Source: Murinocardiopsis flavida
GTDB taxonomy: Bacteria > Actinomycetota > Actinomycetes > Streptosporangiales > Streptosporangiaceae
Direction: 5' to 3'
DNA: 64,000 bases
Assembly (NCBI RefSeq): GCF_003014485.1
Contig: NZ_PYGA01000021.1
Coordinates: 62,001 to 126,000, forward strand
Shown: one piece after another, positions 801-17,092 of the stretch
Layout: every line of letters starts with the position of its first letter
Position numbering within the stretch: the stretch's first letter is position 1
Translations under genes and position numbers: made by a program
The notes under the pieces: model-generated
Told to the model about the DNA's origin: nothing
Databases searched by the model: none
What the model saw: the letters and a program-made list of their open reading frames with translations, nothing else

Positions 801-1973
801 TCAGCCGATGAGGAGTGCGGAGGTCATGGCCTCCATGGCGATCTGGGGGTGGACGTTGGCGCCGATGCGGCCGCGGCAGCGCATGATGGCGTCGATGCGG
901 CGCAGGGTGGACTGCGGGGTGCTGCCCTGGGCGACGCGGCGGAGGTCGGCCTCGCGGGCGCGGGTGGACAGTTCGACGGTGGCGCCCATCTGGACGGCGA
1001 GGACGTCGCGGTAGAACGCCACGAGGTCCATCAGGGCGATGTCGTAGGTGTCGCGCTTGATCCTGGTGGCGCGGCGCTTCTGCTGCTCTTCGAGGTCCTT
1101 GAGGGCGCCGGCGGCGCCGCGCACGGCCTTGGCGACGCCTTTGCCGGTGGCGCCCTCGCCGAACGCCGCCTTGAGGCTGTCGGTCTCCTCCTTGTCGAGC
1201 CCGGCGGTGGTCGACTTGGACTCGGCCTCGGCGAGTTCGTACAGGCGGGCGGCCGCGACGACGCAGGCGCCCATGCCGTCGAGCCGCGCGGGGATGCCGA
1301 GGACCTCGGCGCGGCGTTCGCGCGCCTCGGGGTCGGTGGCGAGTTGCAGCGCGCGCTCGACGTGGCCGGCCGACGCCACGGCCGCCTCTTCGGCGAGGGC
1401 GGGTTCGACGCCGTGGCGGCCGGTGAGGAGCGCCGCGACCGCCCGGGTGGCGGGCGTGCGCAGGGTGACGAGGCGGCACCGGGAGCGGATGGTGACGAGG
1501 AGGTCTTCGGCGGTGGGCGTGCTCAGCAGCCACACGGTGCGCGGCGAGGGCTCCTCGACCGCTTTGAGGAGGGCGTTGGACGCCGCTTCGGTGGCGCGGT
1601 CGGCGTCTTCGAAGAGCACGACCCGGAAGCGGCCGCCGGTGGGGCTGGAGGCCGCGCGGAGCACGAGTTCGCGGGTGCGCTCGACGCCGAAGCTCAGCCC
1701 GCTCGGCTTGACGAAGAGGACGTCGGGGTGGGTGCCGGCCTGGACCTGGTGGCAGGAGGGGCAGTGCCCGCAGCCGCCGTCGCGGCATTGCAGGGCGGCG
1801 GCGAAGGCGCGGGCGGCTGCGGACCGGCCGGCGCCCGGGGGGCCGGTGAACAGCCAGGCGTGGGTCATGCCCGCGCCGGGGGCGCCGGCGAGCTGGGCCC
1901 CTGCCGCGGCCGTCGCGGCGCGGAGCTGGGTGATCACGGTGTCCTGGCCGACCAGGTCGTCGAAGACGCTCAT
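801..1973 (-). CDS. holB: DNA polymerase III subunit delta'
   Basis: About 390 residues. The protein begins MSVFDDLVGQ, has a P-loop-like GPPGAGRS near residue 48, a four-cysteine zinc module (CRDGGCGHCPSC) and the sensor region NALLKAVEEP, in the order seen in clamp-loader AAA+ proteins. The P-loop lacks the usual GKT lysine, as is normal for the delta' subunit, which is a rigid stator and not an active ATPase. It loads the sliding clamp at replication forks. A TTG nine bases further upstream is possible, but ATG at 1973 fits the family start better; no strong ribosome-binding site is visible. holB usually lies next to tmk in actinobacteria; here tmk is 7.6 kb away because two cassettes have entered between them. 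Confidence 0.93.
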   Translation of the reverse strand: MSVFDDLVGQDTVITQLRAATAAAGAQLAGAPGAGMTHAWLFTGPPGAGRSAAARAFAAALQCRDGGCGHCPSCHQVQAGTHPDVLFVKPSGLSFGVERTRELVLRAASSPTGGRFRVVLFEDADRATEAASNALLKAVEEPSPRTVWLLSTPTAEDLLVTIRSRCRLVTLRTPATRAVAALLTGRHGVEPALAEEAAVASAGHVERALQLATDPEARERRAEVLGIPARLDGMGACVVAAARLYELAEAESKSTTAGLDKEETDSLKAAFGEGATGKGVAKAVRGAAGALKDLEEQQKRRATRIKRDTYDIALMDLVAFYRDVLAVQMGATVELSTRAREADLRRVAQGSTPQSTLRRIDAIMRCRGRIGANVHPQIAMEAMTSALLIG

Positions 1974-2173
1974 CGACGACAAGCATAGGAGCCGGGCCGG
2001 ACATGTGCGGCCGGATCGCCGCCGGGGCGGGGGACGGCGCGAGGGCGCGGGGCTGGGGCGCGGGGCGGCCGTGGCACGTTCACGCGGAGTTCACCACCAC
2101 ATCACAGCCATGATCTTCGTCACTACGACGTGACCAGCACTAATGCCGGATGATAAGAACTTCCTAGCTAATA

Positions 2174-2291: not shown

Positions 2292-3440
2292 GTGTCCCAC
2301 CTTGAGGATCTGCTCACGCAGATGATCCGGATACCCAGCGTCAACCCGCGCGGCGCCGGTGAGCCCGCCGAGACGGCGCTCGCGGAGTTCGTCGCCGACT
2401 GGGGCCGCGCACACGGCCTGGAGACGAGCCTGCACGAGGTCGCGGACGGGCGGTGCAACGTCATCGCCACGCTCCCCGGCGACACCGAGCGCCCGCTGCT
2501 CCTCGAAACCCACCTCGACACGGTCGAGACGGAGGGCATGACGGTCGACCCGTTCGAGGCCCGCGTCGCCGACGGCCGCCTGTACGGGCGCGGCTCCTGC
2601 GACGCCAAGGGACCGCTGGCGGTGTTCCTCACCGCCATGGCCGACCTCGCCGCCGCCGGCCCCCGCCCGCAGACGGTCACCCTCGCCGGCGTCGTGGACG
2701 AGGAGCACGTCTACCGCGGCGTGCAGGCCATGCGCGCCATGGACCTCGCGCCGTTCGGCGCGATCGTGGGCGAGCCCACCTCCATGCGCATGGTCACCGC
2801 GCACAAGGGGTGCATGCGCTGCCGGATCACCGCGCGCGGCCCCGGCGGGCACAGCTCCGAGCCCTGGGGCAAGACCAACCCCTTCGACACCGCGGCCCGG
2901 ATCATCGACTTCCTGCACGGCGAGCACACGGCCGAGCTCGACGCGAACCCGCGCCCCCTCATCGGCCCGCCGTCCATGACGGTCACCATGATCGAGGGCG
3001 GCTCCGGGCCCAACGTCCTGCCCGAGAGCGTGACCATGACCGTCGACCGCCGCACCGTCGTCGGCGAGGACCCCCACGCGGTCTGGGCCGAGCTGCGCGA
3101 CCTGCTGGCCGCCCGCTTCGGCGCGCAGGTCGAGGTCGCCGAGCCGCACGTCGTGGACTACGCGCTGGAGACCGACCCCGCGGACCCCTTCGTCAGCGGC
3201 TTCGCCGGGGTCCTCGGCGCACACGGGCTCGACCCGGCGCCCAAGGGGGTCGGCCACGGCACCGACGCGTCCAAGATCGCGCTCGACGGCGTGCCGTCCG
3301 TCGTCTTCGGCCCCGGCGCCATCGCCCAGGCGCACATGCCCGACGAGTTCGTGCCGCTGGCGGAGCTGCACGAGGCGCACAAGGTCGTCGCCGCCGCGCT
3401 GCGCACCCCGTTCGCCCCCGCCATCGGAGGTGCGCTGTGA
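2292..3440 (+). CDS. M20 family metallopeptidase (ArgE/DapE-like)
   Basis: A 382-residue cytosolic zinc hydrolase that would cleave an amide bond in an N-acyl amino acid or small peptide. ETHLDTVE carries the first metal His and catalytic Asp, GRGSCDAKGP the bridging Asp, DEEH the general-base Glu pair, and the C-terminal GHGTDASK / QAHMPDE the last metal ligands. The lid domain with GGHSSEPW lies between. Translation starts at GTG 2292. The stop overlaps the next gene's GTG by four bases (GTGA), so the two are translationally coupled, and a transporter follows. The context suggests uptake and hydrolysis of an acylated amino acid. The exact substrate cannot be read from sequence. Confidence 0.88.
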   Translation: MSHLEDLLTQMIRIPSVNPRGAGEPAETALAEFVADWGRAHGLETSLHEVADGRCNVIATLPGDTERPLLLETHLDTVETEGMTVDPFEARVADGRLYGRGSCDAKGPLAVFLTAMADLAAAGPRPQTVTLAGVVDEEHVYRGVQAMRAMDLAPFGAIVGEPTSMRMVTAHKGCMRCRITARGPGGHSSEPWGKTNPFDTAARIIDFLHGEHTAELDANPRPLIGPPSMTVTMIEGGSGPNVLPESVTMTVDRRTVVGEDPHAVWAELRDLLAARFGAQVEVAEPHVVDYALETDPADPFVSGFAGVLGAHGLDPAPKGVGHGTDASKIALDGVPSVVFGPGAIAQAHMPDEFVPLAELHEAHKVVAAALRTPFAPAIGGAL

Positions 3441-4759
3441 CCGGCTCCGCCGCGACCCCCGGCCGCTCCCCCGGCGACGCGTCCCCGCTGGACGACGGCG
3501 CCGTCGGTCTCCGCTTCAAAGGGCTGCCGCCCGACGCGGCCGACCTGACCCTCGCCGAGATCGGCGCCGAGCGGCGGAACCTCTTCGCCGGCGGGTTCAC
3601 CTTCCCGGCGCTGGTCCTGCGCGAGGCCGCGCTGCGCCACAACGCCGCGCTCATGGCCCGCTACACGGATGAGCGGGGGCTCTCCCTCGCGCCGCACCTG
3701 AAGACGACGTCCTCGCCCGACATCGCCCGCTACGCGCTGGACGAGGGCGCGTGGGGCGTCACCGTCGCCACCCCGTTCCAGGCGCGTGTGTTCATGGCCG
3801 CCGGGTGCACCCGTGTCCTGCTCGCCAACCAGCTCGTGGACCGCGCCTTCGCCCGCGAGGCGGCGGCGTGGCTCGCTGCGGACGACGAGCGGGAGTTCTA
3901 CTGCTACGTCGACTCCGCCGAGGGCGCCGCCCTGCTCGCCGACGCCTTCACCGGTGCGGCGCCCCGCCGCCCCCTGCCCGTCCTCGTCGAGCTCGGCCAC
4001 GAGGGCGGCCGGGGCGGCTGCCGGACCGGCGACGCGGTCCGCGCGGTCGCCGAGGCGGTCCGCAGCCACCCCGAACTGGCGCTCGCCGGCGTCTCCGGGT
4101 ACGAGGGGTCGGTGTCGCACTCCCGCGGGGCCGACGGACTCGACGCGGTCCGCGCGTACCTGCGGCGGCTCGACGCCGCCGCCCGCACCGTCGCCCCGCT
4201 GGCCCACCCCGCCCTGCCCGAGCTCGTCGTCTCCGCGGGCGGCAGCCTCTACTTCGACCTCGTCGCCGAGGTCCTCACCGGCGGCCCCGCCGATGGCAAG
4301 CAGCGGCGCGTCGTGGCACGTCCGGGCGCCTACCTCACCCACGACGAGGGCCTGTACCACGACCTGTCGCCGCTCGACGGCGACGCCGGGAGCGCCGACC
4401 CGGCGCTGCGGCTGCTCCCCGCCATCGAGGTGTGGGCGCCCGTCCTCACCCGGCCCGAACCGGGCCTGGTGATCCTCGGCGCCGGGCGCCGCGACCTCAA
4501 CTTCGACGAGGGCATGCCGACCGCCGCTGCGGCGCGCGACCACCGGGGCGGCGCGCCGCGCCCGCTCACCGGCTGCGAGGTCACCGCGCTCAACGACCAG
4601 CACGCCTACCTGCGCGTGCCCGCGTCGCTCGATCTGTCCCCCGGCGACCTCGTCCGCCTCGGCATCTCCCACCCCTGCACGGCGCACGACCGCTGGCTGA
4701 CCGCGCTGATCGCCACCGGCGACGACACGGTGTCCGCCGTCGCCCGCTGCTACTTCTGA
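3437..4759 (+). CDS. D-threonine aldolase / D-serine dehydratase-like PLP enzyme
   Basis: 440 residues with the fold-type III (alanine-racemase-like) plan: an N-terminal barrel with the PLP lysine in PHLKTTSS (around residue 97) and a C-terminal domain ending HPCTAHDRW, whose His and Cys match the zinc site of eukaryote-type D-serine dehydratases. Such enzymes act on D-serine, D-threonine or 3-hydroxy-D-amino acids. The start is GTG at 3437, inside the stop of the upstream peptidase gene. Together with the peptidase and the MFS carrier it forms a three-gene operon that looks like a route for uptake, deacylation and breakdown of an N-acyl D-hydroxy-amino acid. That pathway is inference. Confidence 0.82.
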   Translation: MTGSAATPGRSPGDASPLDDGAVGLRFKGLPPDAADLTLAEIGAERRNLFAGGFTFPALVLREAALRHNAALMARYTDERGLSLAPHLKTTSSPDIARYALDEGAWGVTVATPFQARVFMAAGCTRVLLANQLVDRAFAREAAAWLAADDEREFYCYVDSAEGAALLADAFTGAAPRRPLPVLVELGHEGGRGGCRTGDAVRAVAEAVRSHPELALAGVSGYEGSVSHSRGADGLDAVRAYLRRLDAAARTVAPLAHPALPELVVSAGGSLYFDLVAEVLTGGPADGKQRRVVARPGAYLTHDEGLYHDLSPLDGDAGSADPALRLLPAIEVWAPVLTRPEPGLVILGAGRRDLNFDEGMPTAAAARDHRGGAPRPLTGCEVTALNDQHAYLRVPASLDLSPGDLVRLGISHPCTAHDRWLTALIATGDDTVSAVARCYF

Positions 4760-4800
4760 CCCCGCACCCGACACCATCCACCGTCAAAAGGACACTTCCC

Positions 4801-6114
4801 GTGACTGCACAGAGCGCTGTCGGAGGGCGCCGCACGCGGACCCGCTTCGCGGTCCTCGCGTCGGACTTCGTCATCCTCGCCCTGAACTACGCGGACCGCG
4901 CGGTGATCGGCGTCGCCGCACCGCTGATCATCGCCGAGTTCGGGTTCTCCAAGGCCGCCTTCGGCTGGATCCTCGCCGCCTTCGCGTTCACCTACTCGCC
5001 GTTCGGCTTCATCGGCGGCTGGCTCGCGGACAAGTTCGGCCCGCGCAACGTCATGGGCTGGGCCGCCATCGCGTGGTCCGCGTTCACCGCCCTCACCGCC
5101 GCGGGCACCGGGTTCGTCAGCCTGCTCATCATCCGGCTGCTGTTCGGCGCGGGCGAAGGACCGCAGGCGACCGTCACGGCCAAGATCATGCAGAACTGGT
5201 TCCCAAAACGGGAGCTGGGCATGGCCGTCGGCATCGCCAACGCCGCCACCCCGCTGGGCGGCGCGATCGGCACGCCCGTCGTCGTCGCCATCATGGGGGC
5301 GACGCAGGGCAACTGGCGGCTGCCGTTCATCATCTTCGGCGCGCTGGGCATCCTGTGCGCCATCGGCTGGTTCGTCGTCGTCCGCGACACGCCGGAGCAG
5401 CACCCGCGGGTCTCCCCCGCTGAGCTCAGCCACATCCGCCAGGACACCGAGGCCCCGTCCACCGAGAAGGACCCGGCCGCGAACAAGGGCTGGTGGCGCT
5501 TCCTCGGCCTGCGCGCGGTCTGGTCGACGGCGATCGCGTTCTTCGGCTACGCGTGGATCCTGTGGACCTTCCTCAACTGGTTCCCCACCTACCTCGTGGA
5601 AGAGCGGGGCATCGACCTCGACGGCCTCGCCGTGAGCGCCTCGATCCCCTGGATCGGCGGCTGCATCGGCCTCGCCCTCGGCGGGATCTTCACCGACTGG
5701 CTCGTGCGCCGCACCGGGCTCACGGCGGGCCCGCGCCGCTGGACGGTCGTGCTGTGCCTCGCGGCGACCGGCGCCCTGTTCGGCGCGGTGCCCATGGTCA
5801 GCAGCGAGCCGGGCGCGGTGGCGCTGATGACCGTCGTGGTGTTCCTGCTGTACTTCACCGGCGCCCAGTACTGGATCATCGTCGGCGAGGCCGTGCCGTC
5901 GTCGGTCTACGGCTCGGTGTCGGGCGCGGTGCAGATGTTCGCGACCACCGCGTCCATCATCGCCCCGATGGCGACCGGCTACCTGGTCGACTCGTCCCTC
6001 GGCTGGGGCGGCATGTTCAGCGTCGCCGCCGGAATCGCCCTGCTCGGCTCCCTGCTGCTGGCGGTGTTCGGCCAGACCTACACCCGCAAACCCGCACCAG
6101 ACCCCGCGAGCTGA
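4801..6114 (+). CDS. MFS transporter, anion:cation symporter type
   Basis: 437 residues with twelve predicted membrane segments. The first-half signature GGWLADKFGPRNVM lies after segment 2, and a conserved GAGEGPQ motif marks segment 4 of the ACS subfamily (tartrate, glucarate and similar organic anion carriers). A hydrophilic central loop around residue 200 separates the two halves. The start is GTG 4801, preceded by AAAGGA, 41 bases after the PLP enzyme stop. It closes the operon and probably imports the compound handled by the two enzymes. A strong hairpin follows 15 bases downstream. Confidence 0.86.
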   Translation: MTAQSAVGGRRTRTRFAVLASDFVILALNYADRAVIGVAAPLIIAEFGFSKAAFGWILAAFAFTYSPFGFIGGWLADKFGPRNVMGWAAIAWSAFTALTAAGTGFVSLLIIRLLFGAGEGPQATVTAKIMQNWFPKRELGMAVGIANAATPLGGAIGTPVVVAIMGATQGNWRLPFIIFGALGILCAIGWFVVVRDTPEQHPRVSPAELSHIRQDTEAPSTEKDPAANKGWWRFLGLRAVWSTAIAFFGYAWILWTFLNWFPTYLVEERGIDLDGLAVSASIPWIGGCIGLALGGIFTDWLVRRTGLTAGPRRWTVVLCLAATGALFGAVPMVSSEPGAVALMTVVVFLLYFTGAQYWIIVGEAVPSSVYGSVSGAVQMFATTASIIAPMATGYLVDSSLGWGGMFSVAAGIALLGSLLLAVFGQTYTRKPAPDPAS

Positions 6115-6128
6115 CCCACACGAAGACA

Positions 6129-6168
6129 CCGGCGGCCCCGGGCCCCTGTTGGGGGCCGGGGCCGCCGG
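6129..6168. terminator. Bidirectional terminator hairpin
   Basis: CCGGCGGCCCCGGGCCCC pairs with GGGGCCGGGGCCGCCGG around a five-base loop, a 17-18 bp stem with one bulge. It lies between convergent genes (MFS from the left, NB-ARC from the right). No T-run follows, as is usual in actinomycetes. An identical hairpin stands downstream of tmk at 9577-9616. Confidence 0.75.
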
Positions 6169-6228
6169 TGGTCGTCACTCCTTGATGATCGGCATCATCC
6201 CCCGTGGGCGCCTCGGCGTCCTTGGGGA
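6129..6228. repeat. Copy 1 of a 99/100 bp direct repeat: tmk 3' end plus terminator
   Basis: This stretch repeats positions 9577-9675 with a single extra C as the only difference. On the minus strand it encodes the last residues of the thymidylate kinase (PKDAEAPTG, then the frame shifts) and then the hairpin that follows that gene. It sits between the MFS gene and the stop codon of the NB-ARC gene, four bases from the latter. It is thus a detached tail of tmk at the far side of a 3.35 kb cassette, the mark left by insertion or segmental duplication at the tmk 3' end. Confidence 0.95.
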
Positions 6229-6231
6229 GAC

Positions 6232-8607
6232 TCACCTCCCGGCAATGCCCTGGATGGCGAGCGCCACTCTCTCCCGCTCCCGCTGCGCCTCCGGGTCACC
6301 GAGCGTGTCGAGCAGCGCGTGCGCTTCGCGAAGGACCGCACCCGCCTCCGAGAGCTCCCCCGATCCGGCGAGCAGCCGACCGAGCCGCGCAAGCGCGAAC
6401 GCGAGTCGGCGCCGCGCCCCGTGCCTTCGACAGCTGGAAACCGCTTCTCGACACAGCTCGACGGCCTCTCCAATGCGTCCGGCGCTTCTCTGGACCTCGG
6501 CGGCTCCCAGAAGGGACTCGGCTTCGCGGTCGACCTCACCGAGGTCCCGATGCATGGCGGCTGCCAGGAAGAACGCCTCCAGGGCCGCATCGACCCCGCC
6601 CTCCGCGGCGTGCAGCCGGCCGAGTTCCAGTGACGCGTAGGCGATACGCACACTGTTCTCGAGTTCCTCCGCGACGCGTAAGGCATGGATGGTGTGCTCA
6701 CGTGCCTCCTCGCCCCTTCCGCCCTCCTGCGCGGTGCGGCCGAGCGTGATCAGCGTCGAGAACTCACCGAGCCGGTTCCCCGTGGCCCTCTGGAGACACA
6801 GCGCCGTGTGCGCGGCACTTTCGGCAGCGGCGAGTTCGCCCGTTTCCAGGAGGGCATCCGCGAGGTTGGCAAGGGCGATGCCCTCCCAACGTTCGTCGCC
6901 GAGTTCGCGAAACCGGGTCAGGGCTTCCTCGAAATGCGTCCGCGCGTCCGCCATCTGATGCGCGCGCAGCCGGACAAGACCGAGTGCATTGTGCGACGCG
7001 CCCTGACCGAAGAGGTCGTGCTCTGCGGTCCGGATCGCCAGCGCCTCTTCGTGGTGGGCCAGTGCGTCCTCTCCTTTCCCGGCCTGGACCAGGGCCATAC
7101 CGAGATTGTCGAGAAGGTCGGCGACGGCGGCGGCAGGCGCGCGCTCCCGGGCCGAGCTGAGGCCGACCCGACCGGTGTCGATCCAGTCCTCGATGTGCGG
7201 CCGGGACGCGTAAATCCGGCCCAGCGTCGCGGCCAACCGCCACGCGGGCTCGGGCAGGTCCGCTGCCTCGGCGCGCTTCACAGCGGCCACGAGGTTGGAT
7301 TTCTCCTGCTCAAGCCACTCCACGGCCGCGGCGCGGTCGGCGAACGCGAGGGGTGGAGCATCGTCGAGTACGGGCCACTCGGGCGTCCGGAACTGGGTGT
7401 CGATGAACGAGGCCGCGTGGTGCGCGGTACGCAGGTACCAGTCGAGCACCCGCCGGAGAGCGGCCACCCGAATCTCCTCGGCGTCGTGGCGTCGTCCGAG
7501 TTCTGCGGCATATGCGCGCAGGAGGTCGTGGAACTCGAACCGCTCCGCCCCCGATTGCTCCAGCAGATGCGCTCCGGCCAGGGCATCGAGCAAGCGGGCG
7601 GCCGCCCTGACGGGGAGGTCGGCCGCAGCGGCGGCGGCCGGAACGCTGAAATCCGTACCGGGCATCAGGCCGAGCACCCGGAAAAGTCGTGCCGCATCGT
7701 CCGGCAGGCCACGGTACGACCACGCGAACACCGCATCGATCGTGTCCTGCTCGTCCTCATCCACCACGAGGCTCTCCCATGGTCCCGTTCCGTCCTGCAA
7801 CTCGTTGATGAGGTCGGCCAGTGGCATATGAGGCCGTACTGCGGCACGTTCGGCCGCGATCCGCAACGCGAGGGGAAGCAGCGCGCACAGGCGGGCGAGG
7901 TGGGCCAGCTCGGCCGGCGCGTCTTTACCTCGGGCGGAGTCGGTGATCGTGCGCAGCAGAGCAACGGACTGCGGGGCCGAGAGCGTACCGACTTCGACCC
8001 GACGGGCACCGTCCCTCGCGACCAGGCCGGACAGGCGGCCGCGCGTGGTCACGACGACCGCGCAGCCGGCGCCGGGCAGCAACGGGCGCTCCTGCCTGGC
8101 AGAGGAGACGTTGTCCAAGACGACCAGAAAGCCGCCGCCCGCCAGAATCGACCGGTACAGCGCAGTACGGTCCTCGATGGCGGCCGGCGCCGCGGCCGGC
8201 GGGACGCCCAGTGCGCGCAGGAACCCGTCGATGACGCGCTCGACGGTCACGGGCTCCTGGGGATCGTATCCCCGCAGGTTCGCGTAGAGCTGTCCGGCCG
8301 GGTACCGCTCCTTCACACGGTGCGACCAGTGGACCGCGAGAGCCGTCTTTCCCGCTCCTGCCGTTCCGGCGATGAGCACGGTGCCGGAGCCGTCGGTTCC
8401 GATGCACGAATCGAGCTGCGCGATCTCGTCGGAACGGTTCACAAAGTCCCGCACCCCGCCGGGCAACTGCCGCGGGCCGGGGAACCGTGTGGCTTCGGGG
8501 CCATGGAAGTGGACGCCTCCACTGACGCTCCCCGCCTGGACCGCCTGTCCGAAGGCGCCGGCCATCGAGGACCGGACGTCCCGCGGAGGCCGGCCGTCGT
8601 CAGGCAT
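6232..8607 (-). CDS. NB-ARC / TPR STAND-type ATPase
   Basis: About 791 residues. A short N-terminus with QAGSVSGGVHFHG precedes an NB-ARC ATPase: Walker A AGTAGAGKTAL, Walker B FLVVLDNVSS, then a winged-helix stretch, and a C-terminal half of tetratricopeptide repeats (LDNLGMALVQAGKGEDAL, HNALGLVRLRAHQMADA and others). There is no SARP DNA-binding domain at the front, so this is not a full AfsR. Proteins of this plan sense a ligand through the TPRs and switch by nucleotide exchange. The ATG at 8607 is 10 bases after the DUF6879 stop; ATG 8565 is an alternative start. It is the last gene of a three-gene cassette bounded by the tmk-tail duplication. The ligand and output are unknown; regulation or defence are both possible. 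Confidence 0.82.
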   Translation of the reverse strand: MPDDGRPPRDVRSSMAGAFGQAVQAGSVSGGVHFHGPEATRFPGPRQLPGGVRDFVNRSDEIAQLDSCIGTDGSGTVLIAGTAGAGKTALAVHWSHRVKERYPAGQLYANLRGYDPQEPVTVERVIDGFLRALGVPPAAAPAAIEDRTALYRSILAGGGFLVVLDNVSSARQERPLLPGAGCAVVVTTRGRLSGLVARDGARRVEVGTLSAPQSVALLRTITDSARGKDAPAELAHLARLCALLPLALRIAAERAAVRPHMPLADLINELQDGTGPWESLVVDEDEQDTIDAVFAWSYRGLPDDAARLFRVLGLMPGTDFSVPAAAAAADLPVRAAARLLDALAGAHLLEQSGAERFEFHDLLRAYAAELGRRHDAEEIRVAALRRVLDWYLRTAHHAASFIDTQFRTPEWPVLDDAPPLAFADRAAAVEWLEQEKSNLVAAVKRAEAADLPEPAWRLAATLGRIYASRPHIEDWIDTGRVGLSSARERAPAAAVADLLDNLGMALVQAGKGEDALAHHEEALAIRTAEHDLFGQGASHNALGLVRLRAHQMADARTHFEEALTRFRELGDERWEGIALANLADALLETGELAAAESAAHTALCLQRATGNRLGEFSTLITLGRTAQEGGRGEEAREHTIHALRVAEELENSVRIAYASLELGRLHAAEGGVDAALEAFFLAAAMHRDLGEVDREAESLLGAAEVQRSAGRIGEAVELCREAVSSCRRHGARRRLAFALARLGRLLAGSGELSEAGAVLREAHALLDTLGDPEAQRERERVALAIQGIAGR

Positions 8608-8617
8608 GGCCGGGCGG

Positions 8618-9229
8618 TCAACTTCCGCTGGGAGGAGCGAGCGGCGCGACGTGCCGGTCGAAGTACCCGGGCAGCGGTGTCCCGACACGGTGGAGGCGGG
8701 CGATCTCTTCGCGGCAGGCGACGACGAGTCCCCGATCATCGTGGGCCGTTGCGCCGCACAATACCCCCTCCTCCGAGTAGCGGATCCGGTAAAGGACGGC
8801 ACTCCCGATGGCGACGACCTCGGGGAGTTCTCCCGCGGACTCCAGCGCGACGACCAGATCGGCACCGCCCACGCGGATGTCCTCGCCGTGGCGGTGCCGG
8901 ATGTGCAGCGCGTGGAACTCCCACTGGAGGTACGGCGAAAGGGGTTCTTCGGCGATGCGCAGTCGGTGTGCCTGGACACCCATACCGCCGAGCGTGGCCA
9001 GCTCGTTCGCCGTATCCGCGCTCGCGGCTTCGAGCAGCCTGAGCGCTTCGTCCCATGAGCCGCGGTCGAACGCAGCCCAACTGGCGTTCTCGGGCTGGCG
9101 AAAGCTCTGGCGGCGTTCGAGCTTCCAGACGCCTTCGTCGGCGGCGTGCGGGAGCCGGGAATCGAAATCGTCGAGGTAGTCGGCCAGCTCCAAATGCCGC
9201 CCGGGTTGAGCGACGACGCGTTCAAGCAT
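8618..9229 (-). CDS. DUF6879 family protein
   Basis: 203 residues, cytosolic, with no signal or membrane segment. The N-terminal LADYLDDFDSRLPHA, the central WEFHALHIRHRHGEDIRV and the end YSEEGVLCGATAHDD / GYFDRHVAPL match an actinobacterial family, DUF6879, that commonly sits beside small or XRE-like proteins. Its function is not known. It overlaps the upstream small gene by 8 bases and is followed after 10 bases by the NB-ARC gene, so the three are one transcription unit. Part of the same interval is also open in the NB-ARC frame, but the codon pattern supports this frame here. Confidence 0.8.
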   Translation of the reverse strand: MLERVVAQPGRHLELADYLDDFDSRLPHAADEGVWKLERRQSFRQPENASWAAFDRGSWDEALRLLEAASADTANELATLGGMGVQAHRLRIAEEPLSPYLQWEFHALHIRHRHGEDIRVGGADLVVALESAGELPEVVAIGSAVLYRIRYSEEGVLCGATAHDDRGLVVACREEIARLHRVGTPLPGYFDRHVAPLAPPSGS

Positions 9230-9509
9230 CGGCGATGTCGTCCTCGGCTGCGGTCAGTACGTTGCGGGGGATGACGACGAGGCGTTCGTCGGCGGCGATC
9301 TTCAGGTCATCGGGCATGTCATCGCGGTAACGATCGGTCAGGTCGCGGCCGACGACCGCGATGTCGCCGTTGCTGAGTTCCCACAGATCGGGGCACCCGC
9401 TGATCTTGTCCGTATTGCCGAGTTCACTCGGGGACCTTCCCAGGCGTCGAACAAGTCGGGCCGAGGAGTCGGCTTCCCAGGGGCGAGCCACGATCGCGTC
9501 TCCGTCCAC
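9222..9509 (-). CDS. Small actinobacterial protein of unknown function
   Basis: About 95 residues from GTG 9509, with a conserved-looking core: PDLWELSNGDIAVVGRD, then DERLVVIPRN near the end. I recognise the type (small proteins paired with regulator or DUF6879 genes) but no function. The frame stays open upstream to a GTG at 9626 that overlaps the tmk stop, but that extension would translate the tmk terminator hairpin, so it is unlikely to be the start. No clear ribosome-binding site precedes 9509, and the transcript may be leaderless. Any promoter must lie between 9510 and the repeat edge at 9577, because the terminator blocks tmk read-through. Confidence 0.65.
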   Translation of the reverse strand: MDGDAIVARPWEADSSARLVRRLGRSPSELGNTDKISGCPDLWELSNGDIAVVGRDLTDRYRDDMPDDLKIAADERLVVIPRNVLTAAEDDIADA

Positions 9510-9576
9510 GGTGAAGGGGGCGCCATCGTAACCCAGGGGTGCCGTAGCCCAGGGGCCTGATTTCCGGGTCGGACCG

Positions 9577-9675
9577 CCGGCGGCCCCGGGCCCCTGTTGG
9601 GGGCCGGGGCCGCCGGTGGTCGTCACTCCTTGATGATCGGCATCATCCCCGTGGGCGCCTCGGCGTCCTTGGGGA
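9577..9675. repeat. Copy 2 of the 99/100 bp direct repeat (native tmk 3' end)
   Basis: This copy is contiguous with the intact tmk gene: it contains the final 17 codons, the stop and the hairpin at 9577-9616. Copy 1 is at 6129-6228. The material between the copies, 6229-9576, is precisely the three-gene cassette. Recombination between the copies would remove about 3.45 kb and restore a simple convergent MFS-tmk arrangement. Confidence 0.95.
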
Positions 9676-15393: not shown

Positions 15394-15520
15394 GGACCGG
15401 GTCCGCTCACCGCGCCGGGCCGGGACGGGTCTGGCCCACCCGCGCGGTTCGCGCCCTTCGTCGTGTCCTACGGCCGAGCGTCCGTTGTCGCGACGGACAC
15501 CCGGTCACAGCAGGCCCTTG

Positions 15521-17092
15521 TTACAGCAGGCCCTTGGCGACGCCGCCCAGCGGGCCGGTCAGCATCGGCATGCCCGACATCTCGACGGGCGCGGCGGGCG
15601 CGCTCTGGTGGACGACGGCGGAGCCGTTGTCGTTGGAGTTGGCGTTGGCCAGGCCCAGGACCGCGACCGCGTTGCCGGTCACGTTCACGGGGACGTCGGC
15701 GTCCACGTCGGCCTGGTTGCCGCCGAGCACCGAGCCGTCGCCCGAGGACTCGTTCTCGTCGCCGCTCTGGTGGACGACCGCGGTGCCGCTCTCGTTGCAG
15801 TTGGCGTTCGCCAGGCCGATGACGGCCCCGACCGCGTTGCCGCACACGTTCACGGGGACGTCGGCGTCCACGTCGGCCTGGTTGCCGCCGAGCACCGAGC
15901 CGTCGCCCGAGGACTCGTTCTCGTCGCCGGAGCTCTGGTGCACGATGCCCTTGACCGAGCCCAGCTTGTCCGTGGACAGGCCCCCGGCGCGCTGGTGCAT
16001 GCGGTCGTCGTCGTCATGGTCGTGACCGGTCTCGACGACGGCCGCGCCCGCACCGTTGCAGTTGGAGTTCGCGGCGCCGAGGACGGCCACCGAGAGGCTG
16101 CACACGTTCACGGGGATGTCGGCCTCGGCGTCGAGCTGGTTGCCGCTCAGCACCGAGCCGTCGCCGGAGGACTCGTTCTCGTCGCCCGCGCTCTGGTGCA
16201 CGACGGCCGAGCCGGTGTCGTTGGCGTTGGCATTGGCAAGGCCCAGGACCGCGACCGCGTTGCCGGACACGTTCACCGGAACGTTGGCTTCCAGGTCCAG
16301 CTGGTTGCCGCTCAGCACCGAACCGTCGCCCGAGGTCTCGTTCTCGTCGCCCGCGCTCTGGTGCACGACGGCCGAGCCGGTGTCGTTGGCGTTGGCATTG
16401 GCAAGGCCCAGGACCGCGACCGCGTTGCCGGACACGTTCACCGGAACGTTGGCTTCCAGGTCCAGCTGGTTGCCGCTCAGCACCGAACCGTCGCCCGAGG
16501 TCTCGTTCTCGTCGCCCGCGCTCTGGTGCACGACCGAACCGGTGTTGTCGGCGTTGGCGTTGGTCAGCCCGATCACGGACACGGCGTTGCCGGACACGTT
16601 CACCGGAACGTTGACGTCGCCGACGACCTGGTTGCCGCCGAGCACCGCGCCGTCGCCGGAGGTCTCGTTCTCGTCGCCCCCGCGGTCGTGCACGATCGCC
16701 GCGCTGCCGTTGCAGTTGGCGTTCGCCAGGCCGACCACGGCGCCGACCGCGTTGCCGCAGGCGTTGACGGGGACGTTGACGTCGCCGACGATCTGGTTGC
16801 CGCTGCCCACCGCGCCGTCGCCGGAGGACTCGTTCTCGTCGCCGCCGCGCTGGTGGACGACCGCCGAGCCGGTGTCGTTGGCGTTGGCATTGGCAAGGCC
16901 CAGGACCGCGACCGCGTTGCCGGACACGTTCACGGGCACGTTGCCCTCGACGACGGCCTGGTTGCCGCTCAGCACCGAGCCGTCGCCCGAGGACTCGTTC
17001 TCGGAGTCCGCCATGGCGATTCCGCTGCCGAGGGCGACGAAGCCGGCGGTGAGCAGGGCGGTCCTGGCGGAGGTACGAACCCACTTACGCAT
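15521..17092 (-). CDS. Secreted protein of eight chaplin-like repeats
   Basis: 523 residues. A signal peptide (MRKWVRTSARTALL, hydrophobic core, AMA-DS) is followed by eight repeats of about 54 residues, each with GDG-VLSGNQ, then VPVNV-GNAVAVLGLANAN and a VVHQ spacer. The core resembles the chaplin domain of streptomycete aerial-surface amyloids. Repeats 2, 6 and 7 keep a pair of cysteines as in chaplins; the others have lost them. Repeat 6 carries an acidic-His insertion (GHDHDDDD). There is no LPXTG motif or membrane anchor, so the protein is probably released or assembled on the surface. The start has AAAGGAAA upstream. It is the first of a three-gene surface-protein group. Surface coat or amyloid formation is inference. 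Confidence 0.78.
   Translation of the reverse strand: MRKWVRTSARTALLTAGFVALGSGIAMADSENESSGDGSVLSGNQAVVEGNVPVNVSGNAVAVLGLANANANDTGSAVVHQRGGDENESSGDGAVGSGNQIVGDVNVPVNACGNAVGAVVGLANANCNGSAAIVHDRGGDENETSGDGAVLGGNQVVGDVNVPVNVSGNAVSVIGLTNANADNTGSVVHQSAGDENETSGDGSVLSGNQLDLEANVPVNVSGNAVAVLGLANANANDTGSAVVHQSAGDENETSGDGSVLSGNQLDLEANVPVNVSGNAVAVLGLANANANDTGSAVVHQSAGDENESSGDGSVLSGNQLDAEADIPVNVCSLSVAVLGAANSNCNGAGAAVVETGHDHDDDDRMHQRAGGLSTDKLGSVKGIVHQSSGDENESSGDGSVLGGNQADVDADVPVNVCGNAVGAVIGLANANCNESGTAVVHQSGDENESSGDGSVLGGNQADVDADVPVNVTGNAVAVLGLANANSNDNGSAVVHQSAPAAPVEMSGMPMLTGPLGGVAKGLL
16206..16535. repeat. Perfect 165 bp tandem duplication inside the chaplin-like gene
   Basis: Two adjacent 165-base units (from 16206 and from 16371) read the same throughout as far as I can compare them. 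They encode repeats 4 and 5 with identical protein sequence, while other repeats differ at many sites. The unit is a multiple of three, so expansion or contraction keeps the frame. Identity at silent sites points to a recent duplication. Confidence 0.85.

Follow-up and report, generated by a model that had tools for sequence, protein, structure and literature searches.

How does a complete operon come to stand between two copies of the end of an essential gene? The question is raised by a locus of Murinocardiopsis flavida in which the 3′ end of tmk is present twice, with three further genes between the copies. We analysed this locus in a stretch of 64,000 nucleotides (assembly GCF_003014485.1, contig NZ_PYGA01000021.1, positions 62,001 to 126,000 of the forward strand), hereafter called the window. 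A preliminary description of the same DNA had proposed either a module whose insertion at the end of tmk regenerates that end, or a segment captured by homologous exchange. Most likely, according to our results, the structure was left as a scar when a common operon was captured in a one-off event, and does not represent a new kind of mobile element.

Two copies of the tmk 3′ end frame three genes

The features of the locus are listed in Table 1. When the two copies of the tmk 3′ end were aligned, 99 of 100 columns were identical, which confirms the duplication as first reported, and the longest exact block common to both was 74 bp. The copies do differ by one base, and this difference is now seen to be a single gap without any substitution (CCCCC in copy A, CCCC in copy B). 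The extra C in copy A is thus an indel, which puts this copy outside the tmk reading frame. Copy A contains the 3′ codons of tmk, its stop codon and the terminator hairpin, and is part of no gene. A search of the genome revealed no tmk tail beyond copies A and B; two extra weak matches were the same hairpins on the opposite strand.

Table 1. Annotated features in and around the tmk–holB interval, in window positions
Feature	Position	Strand	Remarks
holB (DNA polymerase III delta′)	813..1982	-	ancestral tmk neighbour
M20 family peptidase	2292..3440	+	
ORF, C-terminal half D-Ser dehydratase / 3-hydroxy-D-Asp aldolase-like	2453..4759	+	start ambiguous
MFS transporter	4789..6114	+	convergent with operon
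Copy A	6129..6228	-	presumed displaced tmk tail and terminator, 100 bp, one extra C
NB-ARC/TPR STAND-type protein, 791 aa	6232..8607	-	TPR_12 2.2e-20, NB-ARC 1.3e-4
DUF6879 protein, 203 aa	8618..9229	-	PF21806 1.1e-33; overlaps orf1 by 8 bp
orf1, 89 aa	9222..9491	-	likely GTG start, from relatives
Probable promoter/leader of operon	9492..9576	-	-10-like TACGAT common to relatives, by eye
Copy B	9577..9675	-	final tmk codons, stop, terminator hairpin, 99 bp; in-frame tmk end
tmk, MFS-dTMP kinase fusion, 690 aa	9623..11695	-	PF02223 2.1e-45, MFS_1, NCBIfam TIGR00041; end is copy B

Between the copies lie 3348 bp (6229-9576) with three minus-strand genes. The earlier count of exactly three genes in 3.35 kb therefore holds, except for the start of orf1: the listed reading frame (9222-9626) begins within copy B, and because relatives begin at M-x-R-PWEAD, the GTG at 9491 is the likely start. 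Since the TACGAT box upstream of orf1 is common to relatives, the operon apparently has a promoter of its own. The final stop codon of the cassette (6232-6234) adjoins the repeat, as previously noted, with 3 bases (6229-6231) in between. One edge of the repeat coincides with the base of the terminator hairpin; at the other edge is this 3-bp filler after the stop codon. The abrupt junction beside the operon end is at an arbitrary codon of tmk, and the whole tail including the terminator is duplicated.

Flanking repeats were scored as direct repeats of at least 50 bp and at least 90% identity between 1.5-kb flanks. Only 2 of 438 random 3.3-kb segments, drawn from 73 control loci, were flanked in this way, indicating that the duplication is not due to chance. 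The duplicated-tail structure is real and young. The GC3 of the cassette (0.76-0.81, compared to 0.97 for tmk) supports a foreign origin. The absence of an integrase from the cassette, claimed from the start, was borne out: the Pfam scan, which covered genes from holB through topA, detected no recombinase.

The tmk–holB interval has grown in this lineage

In relatives, holB directly follows tmk. The gap could be measured in 44 of 50 tmk entries, which represent 39 distinct genomes once repeats from the same genome are removed, and ranges from -4 to 2144 bp. It is at most 544 bp in 36 of the 39 relatives, compared to ~7.65 kb in the window. As the gaps of the relatives are far smaller, the interval grew in this lineage. 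Besides the operon and copy A, the extra DNA comprises a gene set on the plus strand (M20 peptidase, D-Ser dehydratase-like protein and MFS transporter). This set was probably also acquired, since of 30 other genomes searched a single one contained a match to the MFS gene at E ≤ 1e-80. On the far side of tmk, after topA, the window contains a 165-bp direct-repeat array (15487-17011).

A duplicated tmk coding tail was found in none of the 39 relatives with a measurable gap, most entries covering ~1.5 kb downstream. Within mostly the same ~1.5 kb, none of the 50 tmk entries contained an exact copy of at least 18 bp starting in the last 300 bp of tmk, and two of them had intergenic repeats of 38 and 41 bp. 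Among the genomes searched, the duplication is therefore unique to this assembly. The preliminary description had regarded such uniqueness as speaking against its interpretation; it counts against a recurrent module and not against a one-off capture.

The three-gene operon is common among actinomycetes

A scan of genome contigs with the NB-ARC protein gave no match, and orf1 was used as locus marker instead. Eighty named loci were fetched, and orf1, the DUF6879 gene and the NB-ARC/TPR gene were contiguous in 31 of these. The gene set is present in Streptomonospora, Nocardiopsis, Streptomyces, Saccharopolyspora, Acrocarpospora and others; the three-gene operon is common among actinomycetes. When we looked for the same cassette at tmk in other genomes, as had been suggested, the tmk kinase domain was found near orf1 or the operon at 0 of 111 loci in the DNA fetched around them.

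Flanking direct repeats were likewise rare, being absent from 35 of 37 other three-gene operons. One of the two exceptions (L126) was discarded as a parallel because a paralogous operon lies there in tandem and its end accounts for the 99-bp exact repeat, a trivial case. In the other, in Streptomyces inhibens (L124), the operon follows a complete PTS gene and is itself followed, after 75 bp, by a 362-bp copy of the 3′ part of the PTS gene with 97% identity. This 3′ part is present in three copies within L124 4288-12267, the third lying further on. The S. inhibens locus is a true parallel to the tmk case, yet a single one (1/37), and other histories also fit. The C-termini of PTS relatives gave no answer as to which copy is native. 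Together with the recombinase-free interval and the lack of a duplicated tail in the 39 relatives, the counts of 0/111 and 35/37 leave the idea of an inserting module that regenerates an essential gene's end unsupported.

Within the genome of M. flavida itself, orf1 has five matches, counting the present one. No second copy of the operon was found at the DNA level, and copying from another resident locus was rejected for this reason. Carriage by a plasmid was rejected as well: 33 plasmid records matched, 32 at 60-80% and one at 80-90% identity, and none covered 80% of the query. No phage records with DUF6879 were found. Elsewhere in this genome, two DUF6879 paralogues that are otherwise ~73-79% alike share identical 95 bp at their 3′ ends (contigs C53 and C26; L159 and L160, first 95 bases), owing either to recent recombination or to an assembly overlap.

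The operon probably encodes a STAND/NLR-type switch with a PLD-fold partner

NB-ARC/TPR proteins belong to the STAND switches. In the 791-aa protein, the NB-ARC match (21.8 bits) is just below the Pfam cut-off of 23.5, and TPR_12 is well above its own cut-off; an NTPase domain followed by repeats, the layout of bacterial NLR/STAND proteins, is present. The N-terminal motif VQAGSVSGGVHFHG of this protein is kept in relatives and may resemble amyloid-signalling motifs. In an amyloid-signalling (BASS) NLR pair, the adjacent effector would carry the N-terminal motif of the NLR as well; the kept N-terminal VQA..GGVHFH motif was not spotted by eye in orf1 or DUF6879. Among the PADLOC anti-phage models, only a generic TPR model matched the operon (2.5e-9). 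A published discussion treats bacterial relatives of such proteins as putative receptors for immunity or cell death (PMC7889193).

The two small proteins were modelled, orf1 with AlphaFold2. orf1 had no significant match in Pfam, NCBIfam or PADLOC, and its model (pLDDT 85.5) gave no Foldseek match at E ≤ 0.001. For DUF6879, which was named in no paper found in a literature search, the model reached a pLDDT of 96.2 and the top Foldseek match was Zucchini (E 1.2e-3). With VIA-align, DUF6879 was superimposed on SauUSI (Z 10.3, rmsd 3.8, 147 aligned) and on Nuc (Z 10.1, rmsd 4.0, 136 aligned), Z values of ~10 calling for caution according to the tool's own note. The top structural matches were mostly PLD-fold proteins (PLD, Nuc, Zucchini, PLD-type restriction enzymes and FAM83), together with TrmB-type regulators. 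Sequence profiles revealed no solved relatives, the best E values being 0.32 for DUF6879 and 0.098 for orf1. The HKD motif (HxKx4D) occurred in only 2 of 45 DUF6879 sequences, at unrelated, scattered positions, and the invariant residues are K36, E38, R89, R91, E104 and E137. DUF6879 is thus predicted from its model to adopt a phospholipase-D-like fold that lacks the HKD motif, and because the motif is absent, it is likely to be a pseudo-enzyme or to use a different active site. As a whole, the operon probably encodes a STAND/NLR-type switch with a PLD-fold partner, a putative function. The locus thereby draws attention to a widespread, unnamed NLR operon of actinomycetes whose DUF6879 partner is a predicted non-HKD member of the PLD fold.

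Origin of the duplicated tail

We favour the explanation that the operon was horizontally acquired and added behind tmk by additive recombination in a one-off event, and assign it a probability of roughly one half. The incoming DNA would have carried a near-identical tmk tail and terminator already joined to the operon. It may have been re-circularised and integrated by a single crossover within the ~100-bp tail; alternatively, homology may have acted on one side only, at the tail, with illegitimate joining just past the NB-ARC stop codon. The product would have the order tmk, tail B, operon, tail A and old downstream DNA, with the old gene end of the recipient left behind. We infer a donor, a crossover and this direction (A old, B new); the intergenic DNA of relatives is too diverged to tell the old copy from the new.

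The sharp joint 3 bases past the stop codon and the repetition of the whole gene end are as expected for a single crossover in the tail. A homologous gene-end duplication around foreign DNA, by which single-crossover or HFIR products are recognised, is present. One hundred base pairs is short for efficient homologous recombination. A tail that is 99% alike requires a closely related donor, and such relatives are unsampled. As the genus is represented by this genome alone, we found neither an empty-site strain nor, in the genomes and loci searched (0/111 orf1 loci), a donor in which the operon adjoins a homologous tmk tail. Capture by homologous exchange, the second of the two original proposals, fits best all the same, and the locus would then be a clean, young case of an essential-gene border receiving a whole operon without mobile-element machinery, with both junctions readable.

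The foremost alternative, though an unlikely one, is break repair. A double-strand break at the tmk tail, its ends long and single-stranded, could have been closed by ligation of the operon into it, or templates could have been switched at the hairpin, and fill-in would have given the 100-bp duplication. The repeat edge at the hairpin foot and the 3-bp filler on the other side are consistent with such an event, which needs neither homology with a donor nor a donor of the tmk tail, and none was found. However, staggered ends of 100 nt would be long, and such flanks show no general excess (2/37 operons, one of them trivial).

Next in rank, and doubtful, is later copying of the tail. Here the operon would already have stood behind tmk when a fragment with the tail and terminator was copied to its 3′ end, before the convergent MFS gene, where it was perhaps kept as a terminator; copy A does supply a strong hairpin between the convergent genes. 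Short, near-identical copies of nearby genes also lie behind the operon at other loci. In L085 and L089 (4073-4233 and 7045-7205), a 161-bp fragment of the adjacent divergent gene, ~98% identical, is located just behind orf1-DUF6879; in L103, a ~62-bp near-copy (94%) of a nearby gene is found just behind the operon; and L124 has been described above. We therefore considered these operons as recurrent acceptors of nearby-gene fragments. This was rejected, as the pattern was present in 0 of 27 further orf1 loci and in 0 of 45 Streptomyces DUF6879 loci, the latter being those in which the profile found the gene out of 60 fetched, and the same counts speak against later tail copying.

It is improbable that the operon is a cis-mobilisable integrative element on which an integrase acts in trans, the tails in the tmk 3′ end serving as attL and attR. 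The regenerated gene end, the direct repeats and the foreign GC3 would suit such an element, and the genome has 13 tyrosine-integrase matches, one of them on this contig. That integrase (the closest PF00589 match, C21:58620-59201), however, belongs to a tRNA-Thr(CGT) element of ~6.6 kb outside the window (L276 8694-15404, about -9307 to -2629 in window positions). In this element the tyrosine integrase adjoins the tRNA, and one of the two 44-bp direct repeats (window positions -9307 and -2672) falls inside the tRNA gene. It is an ordinary integrative element and an example of an integrase-made repeat in this genome, at a different site ~8.8 kb from copy A. Moreover, among the other operons of this kind only L124 and the trivial L126 are similarly flanked, no relative has a duplicated tmk tail, and a literature search on such elements gave no match.

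Very improbable in our judgement is a general mechanism by which orf1-DUF6879-NB-ARC operons move gene-exact without an integrase, each duplicating the end of the preceding gene (tmk here, the PTS gene in S. inhibens), with the PLD-fold DUF6879 as a conceivable helper. If the tail duplication did recur with the operon, this would be a new route for spreading immune-like genes; the evidence presented here opposes it. The least probable explanation is an assembly artefact: the genome is a draft of 75 contigs, but the two copies, which differ by one base, lie in the interior of one 129-kb contig, and the assembly seems to break at exact repeats of ~95 bp, as suggested by contigs C53 and C26, which end in a common exact 95 bp, longer than the 74-bp block here.

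Comparison with known systems

The predicted fold of DUF6879 resembles that of the PLD superfamily (Nuc, Zucchini, SauUSI and NgoAVII R; Z ~10), whereas the HKD motif is not kept and different invariant charged residues are found instead. The NB-ARC/TPR protein has NB-ARC and TPR in common with AfsR and HaaT, and its NCBIfam matches to these (320 bits for AfsR and 334 bits for HaaT) are far under the curated cut-offs of 1430 and 1125, respectively. It differs from both in having no DNA-binding domain among its Pfam hits and in its partner genes, orf1 and the DUF6879 gene.

Integrative elements whose insertion restores the end of a protein or tRNA gene likewise leave gene-end direct repeats on both sides and the gene intact. 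At tmk such repeats are present, whereas a recombinase in or beside the element and reuse of the site in the 39 relatives are absent.

The capture that we propose has its closest counterparts in two systems. For the T6SS effector-immunity modules of V. cholerae, addition by one-sided homology has been proposed, with the old 3′ end shifted back; in this account the modules, like the operon at tmk, stand behind a conserved anchor with the old 3′ end pushed downstream, but they are recurrent at the same loci while the tmk case was seen once (PMC5361080). In E. coli, the event was obtained with a laboratory plasmid, pJA2, and 1 kb of homology, compared to ~100 bp and an inferred event in the window. 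In the experiments concerned, 56 of 60 Lac- clones gave a PCR product diagnostic of a duplication of the lacZ end, and the duplications measured 109-950 bp in 14 sequenced clones; the authors' account invokes partial degradation, re-circularisation and a single crossover (PMC3240628). Like the locus described here, these products have a foreign segment flanked by directly duplicated copies of the target gene's 3′ end, and they arose without an integrase (PMC3240628).
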